Part shown: positions 51-44,603 of the stretch, in pieces
Position numbering within the stretch: the first letter of the stretch is position 1
Layout of the letters: the number at the start of each line of letters is the position of its first letter
From: Apostichopus japonicus
Lineage: Eukaryota; Echinodermata; Holothuroidea; Aspidochirotida; Stichopodidae
NCBI RefSeq assembly: GCF_037975245.1
Contig: NC_092563.1
Span: 2,878,501-2,942,500, forward strand
Reading direction: 5' to 3'
Length of the DNA: 64,000 nucleotides
Notes under the pieces: model-generated
Database searches by the model: none
Told to the model about the DNA's origin: nothing
The model's input: only the letters and a program-made list of their open reading frames with translations
Position numbers and translations under genes: made by a program

Positions 51-777
51 AGCCTGGCCGGGTACCGTTATTTTCCGCACACGTTACTTTCCGCTGAAAC
101 AAAACGGTGTTTTCCGCAAACAAATTTGTGAGCGGAAAAAAACGTTTTTTTCAGCGGAAAGTAACATTTTTTTTGGAGGAACAGAATAACTTACTGAATT
201 GATTAGGCACATGGAATGATTTAGGAAGATGGAGAAGATAGGATTTAACTGTAACAGGATAAATCGGCCATGATTTTAGATGAAACTCGTAAGAAAGGTG
301 GTGCAAAATGCGTGTTCGGTTATTAAAACAGCCCTTACTAATACAGCCATTTCCAGCGAAAATCAAAGATACCGCCTTTTACAACTTTTTTTTAAACTAT
401 CAGTAAGCGGATCGCAGTTTTAATACATTATTAGATAGTCAATCTTTCATAACGCGGGCGTCCCTTTGCCCTTTCATCGGCCGACCGCCTCATACTTCTT
501 TAATAATCCCTAATTACACACCCCCAAGCCTCCTCTATATTATAAGCAGCTTAACTTTTCTGACATGAACTCAGTCTAACCATCCTTTATCGACGTTCTT
601 TGATACTTTCTCATGTTATTTGAATCATCCTGCCTGAATTTGGTATCCTAAAATTGCGGAAAAATATAGTATACAGGAAAGTGAAAAAAAAAGGTGTTTT
701 CCGCAGAAGAATTTTTTCAGCGGAAAGTAATCAGCGGAAAGTAACGTATGCGGAAAACAACTGAAACCAGCCTGGCC
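51..777. mobile_element. Non-autonomous TIR element with 9-bp TSD (Mutator-like MITE)
   Basis: The direct repeat AGCCTGGCC occurs at 51-59 and 769-777 and brackets an element of about 709 bp (60-768). The two ends are inverted copies of about 37 bp that share TTTTCCGCA, ACGTTACTTTCCGCTGA and flanking bases. Further copies of the TTTCCGC motif lie inside in both orientations, for example near 111, 132, 154, 655, 698, 719 and 732. There is no transposase ORF. A 9-bp TSD with long TIRs fits Mutator-like elements; the superfamily is inferred from TSD length alone. Confidence 0.75.
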
Positions 778-918: not shown

Positions 919-1505
919 GGGGCTGTGTCATTCCGCCATCGGTACATTCTGCCATAGAAAATGTGCTCTTTCCACCATAGAAAAAGTGCCATTCCGCCAT
1001 GTTATCCTGATGGCAGTAAAGCACATTTGAATGGCGAAAAGAGCACATTACTGTGGGTGCACTGTAGGCCTATATGCACTGTATATTGTTTCGCTTCACA
1101 CTACTTAGGCCTGCAAAATCCACAAAATCGGTCACTATGTTTATATATAAATTTATATAATTTGATTTATTAAACCAACTTTATTGTATATTTGAAGACA
1201 GTGTATCGACACTTACGAACTTACAATTTAAATTATTCAATCAACATGTATATTAAAGACTATCTATTCCCAATCTTGTCTTAACTACAATTCAGTCTAT
1301 CCAGCGAACCGTCACATTTGAAGACGATGTACCTATCCTTCCACGTGAATCAAAGAAAGTTTCACCGATACATTCCTGTGTAAAATCCATTCCTAAAATG
1401 AACCTTTCGGCTATAGGTTCAAGCCTTTCCGCCATGGAAGAAAGGATCGAAACCTATGGCCGAATGGTATGGCGGTATGCACCCATGGCGGAATGGCACT
1501 GGAAC
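919..1505. mobile_element. Second TIR element (MITE) with CATTCCGCCAT ends
   Basis: The left end near 925-957 and the right end near 1468-1501 are inverted copies sharing CATTCCGCCAT and GGT-CAT-CGCCAT blocks. Inside the left half is a second inverted pair (AATGTGCTCTTTCCACCAT near 960 against the complement near 1030-1047). There is no coding capacity. The exact ends and TSD are not clear; TTTATT is shared by both flanks but that is weak. It differs from the element at 51-777 but is also built around TTCCGC. Confidence 0.55.
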
Positions 1506-19200: not shown

Positions 19201-27923
<8,723 letters not shown>

Positions 27924-42898: not shown

Positions 42899-43829
42899 GC
42901 AATTTAATATATTTTATTTTTTTATATATAACTTGACATATAGTTCCCTTGGCCATGTATAATGCGTGGAAAACGAACAAACTTTGTCAGCGCAAGTTAC
43001 GAGGGAAAAAACTTGAGATTGTACACTCACGGATGGCGTCACTTAAAGTTTCATTGTAACACAGCCATGTTGATTCCGTTTGTTTATCCGTACATCCCAA
43101 CCATATCCCCTCGGATACAATCATATCTCTCAGGTCAATCATTTCTTGTTCCGTTTCCAGTACAACCAGATGAGCTCCCCGCAGATAGCACCAAACGTTA
43201 GCTTCATCCCAAGAATGCTTCAACCCGTCTGCATAAATGTAACAGTGGCCGTTAAGCAGGGTCCAACCATCGGGACAATTCTCTGCATCTTATAGAAAAT
43301 AAAAATAGAACACAGTTACGTACATGAATGCATTCATGCCACACCCTCCGTGTTTGTTTAAACTAACTCCTCCCCCTTCCTTCGATTCTCTCTATGCTCA
43401 TTCTATCTCCCAACCCCCCCCCCCCCTTCCTTCAATCCTTTCCCTCGTTGTCATTCCATCTATCACTCCCCCCTCGATCCTCCCTCTCATTGTCATTCTA
43501 TCAACCACCCCCTCCTCCCATATGATCATTTATTTCATTGTCAGCCTATCTGCCCCCCCCCCATTCGACAATTACAATTGCCTGACGATGGAGTGGTGAC
43601 CACTCCGAAATATAGCAGTATGTCGTTGTTAAAAATATTCGCTTGTTTATCTTTTATATTATATATATACTATATATTATCTTTTATATTATATATATAT
43701 ATACACACACATATATATATATATTTATATATATATATATATATCTATATAAATATATATATAATATATATATATATCTATATATATATAATCTATATAT
43801 ATATAATCTATATACATATAATCTATATA

Positions 43830-43878
<49 letters not shown>

Positions 43879-44603
43879 AAAGATAAACAAGCGAATATTT
43901 TTAACAACGACATACTGCTATATTTCGGAGTGGTCACCACTCCATCGTCAGGCAATTGTACAAGATCAATTAAATACAAGGGCTAATATACATCCAAAGA
44001 CGACAATAGTGATAAGCATGAGTGATTTTTAAACTAGGAATGATTAGAACAACCAGCACATTTTTTTAGTGAATATTTTCAACTTAGGAATGAATAGAAC
44101 AACCAGCAATAAAAAGTAACTAGGGATTAGAATAGCTCCAACCCGTAGCTCGCTACATTTCTATTTAGGTCAGCATTTAAGGCTTTTATTAGGAGACTCT
44201 CGTTAATCTTCCTCCTGGGAACCACTGGGGTTCATTACCAATGGTGGCACAATGGTCAACAAAAGTTTTGTTGACCATTGTCTACTTTTGAAAACTCGTG
44301 AAATTATGAAGATCACTTAACGTAATTAATCCGAAAAATTTAATAAATGAAAGGTAATCTGGATTTTTAATTATTCAAGTAATGAATTAATCCTAAGTAA
44401 TAAATTCATAGTCGATAAGGCTTGTCACATGTGATGTTAAGCTCCAGTTCGGTATTTTCTCTGCACCAATATGCCTACTTGCAAAAATGTGAAGATTCCT
44501 TTGTTTTAAACAAATTTAATATAGTTATACCTGAAATAATTTGTAACTTACTTGTATTTTCTTGGAGAAATGAAGCTACAAGCAAGAAGAGTAATAAATT
44601 CAT
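32969..44603 (-). CDS. Secreted CTLDx3-WSC-PAN protein, copy B (9 exons)
   Basis: Minus-strand exons in gene order: 44603-44552, 43288-43031, 42189-42037, 41105-40851, 40328-40188, 38196-37951, 37042-36917, 34162-33887, 33243-32969. They join in phase 1 throughout to give about 593 aa. The order is a signal peptide (MNLLLFLLVASFL), three CTLDs (about 18-154, 155-286, 287-410), WSC (about 411-502, YRGCF...QCNCGNE...QYCGD) and PAN (about 503-593, CADEC...RCLSFNYC...YTCELNYK), then a stop. Exon lengths match copy A almost exactly (258/258, 153/147, 255/252, 141/138, 246/246, 126/123, 276/276, 275/275). The CTLDs again carry W[IL]GC and lack EPN and WND. It is a tandem paralogue of copy A in the same orientation; function is inferred as secreted recognition. 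Ligand unknown. Confidence 0.87.
35158..36350. repeat. Pair of diverged direct repeats in copy B intron
   Basis: A segment of about 130 bp near 35150-35280 recurs near 36227-36350, sharing AAGCTTTACAAC and ATAATAGCTAATTGATAT-type blocks. A second pair (GTATCACAGAA ... TTTCCATAT) occurs near 36135-36213 and 36450-36525. Old local duplications between the WSC and CTLD3 exons. Confidence 0.55.
38478..39543. repeat. 40-bp minisatellite, about 26 copies
   Basis: The unit is AATAGGAACAGTCAGGTGGT followed by TGTAGTTTATTAATTGTTTT, with alternations GTAG/GGAG and TTTTAA/TTTCAA. It lies in the copy B intron between CTLD2 and CTLD3. Confidence 0.95.
41223..41912. repeat. (TAG)n microsatellite of about 0.7 kb
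   Basis: Imperfect AGT/TAG trinucleotide tract in the copy B intron between CTLD1 and CTLD2. Poly-Val and poly-Tyr frames here are artefacts. Confidence 0.95.
42836..42895. repeat. (TA)n microsatellite
   Basis: Pure TA tract in the intron splitting CTLD1 of copy B. Confidence 0.95.
43574..43632 (+). ncRNA. Candidate hammerhead ribozyme, left arm
   Basis: The core CTGACGA (43582-43588) is followed by a hairpin GGAGTGG-TGA-CCACTCC (stem II), then GAAA (43607-43610). Stem III is ATATA-GCAG-TATGT (five pairs, one U-G) and ends in the cleavage triplet GTC, so cleavage is predicted after 43624. Bases before the core (CAATTGC) pair with those after the cleavage site (GTTGTTA) as a weak stem I with wobbles and one U-U. 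One extra T sits between the core and stem II. Hammerheads of this kind are known from Penelope-like elements. Confidence 0.7.
43668..43866. repeat. TA-rich microsatellite between ribozyme arms
   Basis: TA repeat with ATATATAATCTA and CACACA interruptions. It forms the loop of the 43573-43960 inverted repeat. Confidence 0.9.
43902..43959 (-). ncRNA. Candidate hammerhead ribozyme, right arm
   Basis: Same motif as at 43574-43632, on the minus strand: CTGACGA at 43951-43945, the stem II hairpin, GAAA, stem III and a GTC triplet, with cleavage predicted between 43909 and 43908. This copy is in the sense orientation of the adjacent retroelement fragment. Confidence 0.7.
44127..44231 (-). mobile_element. 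C-terminal coding remnant of a Penelope-like element
   Basis: On the minus strand a frame contains RRKINESLLIKALN then LNRN and ends LELF followed by a stop at 44129-44127. The pattern RRK..ESLLI......LN.N......LELF is a familiar C-terminal signature of metazoan Penelope-like and related retroelement proteins. An upstream in-frame stop shows it is truncated. It lies in intron 1 of lectin copy B, just upstream of the minus-strand hammerhead motif. Confidence 0.65.
44250..44280. repeat. 31-bp near-perfect palindrome
   Basis: CAATGGTCAACAAAA, one central G, then its exact reverse complement. It borders the Penelope-like remnant and may mark one of its edges. Confidence 0.8.

Follow-up and report, generated by a model that had tools for sequence, protein, structure and literature searches.

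Two Penelope-like element ends lying tail to tail very probably account for an inverted repeat with hammerhead-like motifs beside a lectin exon of Apostichopus japonicus

The 64,000-nt stretch of Apostichopus japonicus DNA analyzed here (G000:C3:2878501-2942500, referred to as the window) contains a C-type lectin domain exon of a host gene (42987..43289, minus strand; PF00059 Lectin_C, E=1.1e-5) and, about 280 bp from it, an inverted repeat in which each arm carries a motif resembling a hammerhead ribozyme. The arms of this repeat (I1) lie at 43573..43669 (plus strand) and 43864..43960 (minus strand), are complementary at 97 of 97 nt, and were found to be the 3′ ends of a Penelope-like element (PLE) of a family named here family A. 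A TA-rich tract of 194 nt (43670..43863), delimited by sequence and by the inverted-repeat search, separates the two PLE tails. The left arm, whose first letters are TACAATTG, is a 5′-truncated PLE 3′ end that begins 9 nt ahead of CTGACGA and enters the TA tract, while the right arm is the 3′ end of a longer, 5′-truncated minus-strand copy (43864..44266) that retains the end of the endonuclease open-reading frame (ORF), the 3′ untranslated region (UTR), the hammerhead-like motif, and the tail. The 5′ limit of this copy was set at 44266, where matches to many copies end, and a short palindrome (44249..44281), seen as a 33-nt reverse match at 97% in L003/L004, lies at that junction and is possibly a snap-back of the cDNA end.

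Read on the plus strand, the left arm presents, in order, CTGACGA (43582-43588), a T (43589), a 7-bp stem II with the loop TGA (43590-43596/43600-43606, GGAGTGG-TGA-CCACTCC), GAAA (43607-43610), a 5-bp stem III that includes one U-G pair and is closed by a GCAG loop (43610-43614/43619-43623), and GTC (43622-43624). The core therefore occupies 43582..43624 in the left arm and 43909..43951 on the minus strand in the right arm, with cleavage predicted 3′ of C43624 (43624^43625) and, in mirror image, between 43909 and 43908 (43909^43908). An earlier reading of the window, made from the letters alone (the sequence-only reading), had described a perfect inverted repeat of at least 90 bp with the parts of a hammerhead in the proper order in each arm, and both descriptions are borne out, including the predicted cut positions. 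It made no mention of the additional U before stem II, of the weakness of stem I, of the missing Rfam hammerhead hit, or of the repetition of the arm across the genome.

The core of a type I hammerhead is C3-U4-G5-A6-N7-G8-A9 ... G12-A13-A14-A15.1 ... U16.1-H17, and all of these residues were found at both arms by sequence and by descriptor. The pattern CTGANGA...GAAA is by itself weak, because the window holds eight occurrences against 3.3 expected, a count reached by 2 of 100 shuffles and not rare. The full descriptor (core, stem II ≥5 bp, stem III ≥3 bp, U-H) matched the window at these two places only, compared to 19 hits in total when 300 sequences of 64 kb were generated with an order-1 Markov model, or ~0.06 per window with alternative stem III lengths tallied separately. 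Two features weaken a canonical reading. The extra U at 43589 sits between A9 and stem II, so that the junction of A9 with the 10.1-11.1 pair is not the canonical one, and stem I consists of C-G, G.U, a U/U mismatch, U.G, A-U, and A-U, of which the last two A-U pairs are absent from the TTTT subfamily (TACTTTTGCC); in constrained folds of the right copy, stem I did not form. One active viroid hammerhead seems also to contain an extra residue. Given the stem II junction and the Rfam score described below, the motif was not filed as canonical type I. It resembles a type I hammerhead and is very likely a PLE hammerhead relative, and the family A motif may be capable of cleavage.

The family identity of the arms was established by searching the genome (671.6 Mb, 35 contigs). 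Arm matches were found in at least 45 places, of which two are the window arms themselves and at least 43 lie elsewhere; this is a lower bound, with 40 of 159 first-look candidates scored. In 19 of 27 other places, similarity to the right copy reaches 44000 or beyond, and farther upstream the copies read ...GGQKGAINLHCTAHKHHLPTFVDHCATIGNEPQWFRRKI.ESL in better frames. The family ORF in locus L038 (G000:C19:5477066-5480956) scored over the cut-off for RVT_1 and contains a C-terminal GIY-YIG domain at E=2.3e-4 (21.8 of 22.6 bits), giving the combination of reverse transcriptase and C-terminal GIY-YIG in one ORF that marks an endonuclease-bearing (EN+) PLE. The window copy retains only the C-terminal end of this ORF, as two endonuclease fragments in two frames (44127..44281, minus strand; KINESLLIKALNADLNRNVASYGLELF; TFVDHCATIGNEPQWF). 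The arm is thus the 3′ end of a PLE, the right arm being the end of the 5′-truncated minus-strand copy and the left arm a second copy that is cut 9 nt before the core.

Locus L038 is itself a large head-to-head inverted PLE repeat, with two ORF-bearing arms that are ~99% identical over matched stretches and stand ~165 nt apart. Several 5′-truncated family A copies (L005, L014, L016, L018, and the one at window 43573) start at or near CAATTG, just ahead of the core.

We hold with considerable confidence that the locus consists of two copies of one PLE family lying tail to tail at a TA tract by the lectin exon, with a PLE-type hammerhead motif in the 3′ end of the element. Doubling of the PLE end in this way yields an inverted repeat whose two strands each carry one motif. 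The window pair may have arisen by two insertions at one TA tract, a route that we weighed against the layout of other copies. Thirty loci, corresponding to 28 distinct places since L003/L004 and L028/L029 coincide, were selected with a query that had a short tail, so that the first member of each pair is subject to a bias from which its partner is free. An exact motif search found an inverted neighbour within the 3-kb locus in 10 of the 28 places, nine of them head-to-head with the window as the sole tail-to-tail case, and no mirrored partner in the remaining 18. The exact search misses changed motifs, as in L025; a tenth head-to-head partner, in L018, is cut within the motif.

Family A ends have tails of two lengths, the longer one occurring in 15 of 57 placed ends (53 distinct), and 34 of 36 scorable short ends continue as TA repeats. 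A short tail is combined with a long one in nine of the ten family A head-to-head pairs (L005, L009, L010, L014, L016, L018, L020, L022, and L027), with L028/L029 as the exception. In a set of places picked by protein similarity (L051-L070), 6 of 14 placed ends had long tails, and at that rate at least nine long partners of ten would be expected with p = 0.003. The composites of a diverged PLE family, family C (L073-L075, described below), have flank matches of 14, 13, and 9 nt common to both ends in 3/3 cases and, by reading, one short and one long tail in 3/3. The head-to-head pairs, the two tail lengths, and the family C flank matches together reproduce what characterizes EN+ PLEs, namely inverted or tandem ends, an optional 3′ tail, and a short target-site duplication (TSD).

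Given the short/long tail pairing and the common flanks, a head-to-head composite is probably inserted as a single unit. A tentative extension of this, to which we give a little less than an even chance, is that each composite arises in one event in which both cut target strands prime reverse transcription, producing the short and the long tail starts with the motif just inside both, and that the window pair is an exception produced by a separate second insertion. The protein of the PLE called PAc is described, in the available text of PMC11167929, as cutting and extending both target strands and favouring AT-rich DNA.

The window pair is tail-to-tail, both of its tails are short, and inspection by eye saw no TSD or shared flank for it. 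It could instead derive from one event, in which the RNA or cDNA primed itself through its self-complementary UA tail, and the identity of the arms at 97 of 97 nt fits such an origin, as does the tail-to-tail layout that self-priming on a sense template would yield (PMC3846280, in the part available). Arm identity does not need one event, however, because identical copies exist elsewhere: the arm is common in the family, with 9 of 41 other placed hits being full-length and identical over 73 nt (8 of the nine came from loci selected for resembling it), and at least two further places match it along the entire 97 nt without a difference. The two short tails also set the window apart from nine of the ten head-to-head pairs. 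Self-priming is on balance unlikely, though it keeps an appreciable share of the probability, and two insertions at one TA tract remain the preferred origin of the pair.

Within the left tail (43660-43700), TTATCTTTTATATTATATATATA occurs once more downstream, as if reverse transcription had slipped or re-primed.

The identification of the motif was examined in more distant PLEs, five diverged loci with 34-38% amino acid identity having been fetched for this comparison: L071 and L072, named family B, and L073-L075, named family C, whose proteins are 39% identical between the two families. CTGANGA, a hairpin, and GAAA follow the ORF in all five diverged loci with that end, reading CTGATGA-T-GAAAGT/ACTTTC-GAAA-CATG-TC in family B and CTGACGA-G-GAAGAT/ATCTTC-GAAA-ACGTT-T in family C. 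The family A model (R1) detected family C at 21.2 bits (E=0.0039), and the family B motif was detected by the descriptor; a three-family model (R2) also matches the left core, by construction, that sequence being in the model. Core, 6-bp hairpin, and GAAA together occur at eight places in the 22.5 kb of the five loci against 0.02 expected (400 Markov sets), and these eight places amount to about two independent cases because they are copies of two families. Stem II is paired in 24 of 24 cells, 4 of its 6 pairs are changed on both sides among 4 distinct rows, in keeping with conservation as a helix, and sliding the stem II partner by 1-3 columns worsens both pairing and covariation. One extra nucleotide precedes stem II in each family, U in family A, T in family B, and G in family C, although for family C the descriptor also allows an alternative with no extra nucleotide and a 3-bp stem II. 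Stem III has its 5 bp in family A, and families B and C have only short palindromic sequences there. The repeat, the PLE coding domains, the recurrence of a motif 3′ of the ORF across three PLE families, and the covariation of stem II are direct observations. The evidence for structure between families is stronger than that within family A.

Variation within family A was assessed in 20 places taken from 77 protein matches, each reaching the C-terminus and not already in the set, with other C-terminus-reaching matches left out. The motif region is present in 17 of the 20; the three without it (L054, L055, L066) have one deletion in common, as if a single locus had been duplicated. In 9 of the 17 copies, the core is intact together with stems II and III. 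An earlier comparison, which had pointed to strong conservation with a divergence of 2% vs 14% (40/43 copies), was not used, as it included copies chosen by arm similarity and counted indels. Covariation within family A had too little variation to inform.

Several results weigh against a hammerhead motif. The Rfam hammerhead models, which the sequence-only reading had named as a check on its motifs, found nothing in the window at gathering scores and nothing around the arms at E up to 10. In predicted folds of four constructs, another hairpin was each time more stable than the structure constrained to form hammerhead stems II and III, at -16.7 vs -12.1 and -23.5 vs -14.2 kcal/mol for the left copy and -19.7 vs -16.6 and -25.8 vs -19.3 kcal/mol for the right copy. 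The core or stems are altered in 8 of the 17 family A copies, and these 17 copies gave no sign of special conservation, with a mean substitution of 0.033 in the motif vs 0.029 in the upstream 3′ UTR; family A alone thus indicates no extra constraint, because its motif is no better conserved than the UTR upstream. With R1, the family A model, family B was absent from the matches at E up to 5. Four distinct rows, and one helix drawn from those same rows, underlie the covariation, and 117 of 500 shuffles attained its count of further pair types. In L076, the sixth of the diverged loci, no motif was seen, its similarity ending before the C-terminus, so that it is uninformative.

The Rfam search itself was functional, as Hammerhead_1 gave at least 59 matches elsewhere in the genome, at least 50 of them over the cut-off (74 of 66,307 first-look candidates scored), and detected hammerheads in all five loci fetched as a control. 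Searches of the family B and family C loci likewise gave no Rfam hammerhead hit for their motifs, and the negative result may stem from a PLE variant and not from the absence of a hammerhead. For the claim of the sequence-only reading that the arms contain hammerheads, the type of motif is upheld by the diverged PLE families in which it recurs and by stem II covariation; the lack of a hammerhead model hit, which that reading had set as a refuting result, was observed.

The negative Rfam results, along with the extra U, the weak stem I, and the more stable alternative fold in 4/4 constructs, would fit a core that is a chance likeness within a hairpin of the PLE 3′ UTR, perhaps a protein-binding or reverse-transcription signal, with no ribozyme ancestry. 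We consider this improbable given that CTGANGA, hairpin, and GAAA recur after the ORF in three families with a covarying stem II, and that hammerhead motifs are reported, in the available text of PMC6155905, for all available PLE sequences. The motif most likely belongs to PLE replication. In a full element, it would cleave long transcripts of the PLE close to where units join, and cleavage would probably be helped by a PLE protein or by the pairing of two motifs.

Hammerhead motifs of PLEs were reportedly described by Cervera and De la Pena in 2014, and a 2017 paper is said to concern small PLE hammerhead variants. The family A motif shares with PLE hammerheads the placement of the core close to the end of the element or to the unit junction, and a short or weak stem I. 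It differs from them in the extra nucleotide before stem II, which is found in families A and B, and in C as well if its stem II is 6 bp. PLE hammerheads are usually minimal and without helix III, according to the available part of PMC6155905, while helix III of family A comprises 5 bp and a GCAG loop. In PAc, the hammerhead lies at the junction of the pseudo-long terminal repeat (pLTR) and the ORF, did not cleave without the PLE protein, and was dispensable for insertion in vitro (PMC11167929, in the text available). The PAc start codon is placed there at the start of stem II, and the A9-U-G of family A likewise reads ATG at that position but meets TGA two codons on. Penelope elements have inverted pLTRs, an optional tail, and short TSDs, usually head-to-head (PMC3846280, available part). 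The copies in this genome resemble them in their inverted ends, in an optional 3′ tail on one copy, and in a short TSD round the composite (seen as flanks in family C), and the window pair differs in being tail-to-tail with two short tails where head-to-head is usual both in those elements and among the pairs detected in this genome. PLE hammerheads and inverted PLE ends have thus already been published, and the window is a further example with an unusual layout. What it adds are PLE hammerhead relatives from three families without an Rfam hit, and the unusual way in which A9 joins stem II in them could inform an improved model.

The sequence-only reading had also placed both motifs in a putative intron 1 of a lectin gene that it took to be expressed, and had proposed that a long hairpin could compete with ribozyme folding and that cleavage could affect the lectin pre-mRNA. 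The hairpin is supported, as all 97 of 97 arm pairs are present in the minimum free energy fold of a transcript spanning both arms. A transcript of the lectin gene would derive from the minus strand, so the right motif alone is sense in it and the left arm is the complement of that motif; the right motif would be masked there because the left arm pairs with it. An effect on the pre-mRNA is therefore unsupported, the insertion being that of a dispersed PLE (at least 43 other matches) whose arms pair mutually. A pair of ribozymes adapted by the host to cut or regulate this pre-mRNA from within a putative intron could draw on the adjoining C-type lectin exon, on the right copy lying in the sense of the gene, and on published cases of intronic hammerheads and of hammerheads in the 3′ UTRs of rodent Clec2 (PMC6155905, in its available text). 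Such a role is very improbable for a sequence typical of a dispersed PLE, with arms that pair with each other over 97/97 pairs in the lectin transcript and a motif that is not specially conserved among 17 family copies. On the reading as PLE ends, the motif would serve no particular function in the lectin gene; the eye-catching inverted repeat beside the exon is explained as PLE debris, and a host regulatory story is unneeded.

A DNA transposon (miniature inverted-repeat transposable element) with terminal inverted repeats starting TA-CAATTG, which the arms alone resemble with their flanking TA, was rejected for the family and retains practically no probability, since similarity extends upstream past the arm into the PLE 3′ UTR and ORF in 19 of 27 other places and 18 of the 28 distinct places have no mirrored partner by exact search.

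Canonical hammerheads also occur elsewhere in this genome. The five fetched control loci (L077-L081, stretches of 501-1101 nt) contain seven type I hammerheads that pass the Rfam cut-off, at 403-445 (+) in L077, 360-402 (-) in L078, 378-419 (+) in L079, 232-273 (-) in L080, and 274-315, 614-654, and 941-982 (+) in L081; no PLE frame was seen in these stretches by eye, and L080 additionally holds a copy of the family A motif. They read CTTCGC-CTGANGAGTCC...GGACGAAAC..., each directly 3′ of GGTTCGATTC, which resembles what we take to be a tRNA B box, and the whole looks like a short interspersed nuclear element (SINE)-like element that carries a hammerhead. Membership of the window arms in this canonical family was considered and rejected, as the sequence differs. 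The metazoan retrozymes and SINE-like elements of PMC7229834 (available part), whose hammerheads are canonical type I, share with the window motif the type I order of core and stems, while the window motif lies within the terminus of a PLE family that has coding capacity. Elsewhere in the window, a long low-complexity tract at 22480-23499 would encode predominantly Asp, Ser, Met, or Ile according to the frame chosen.
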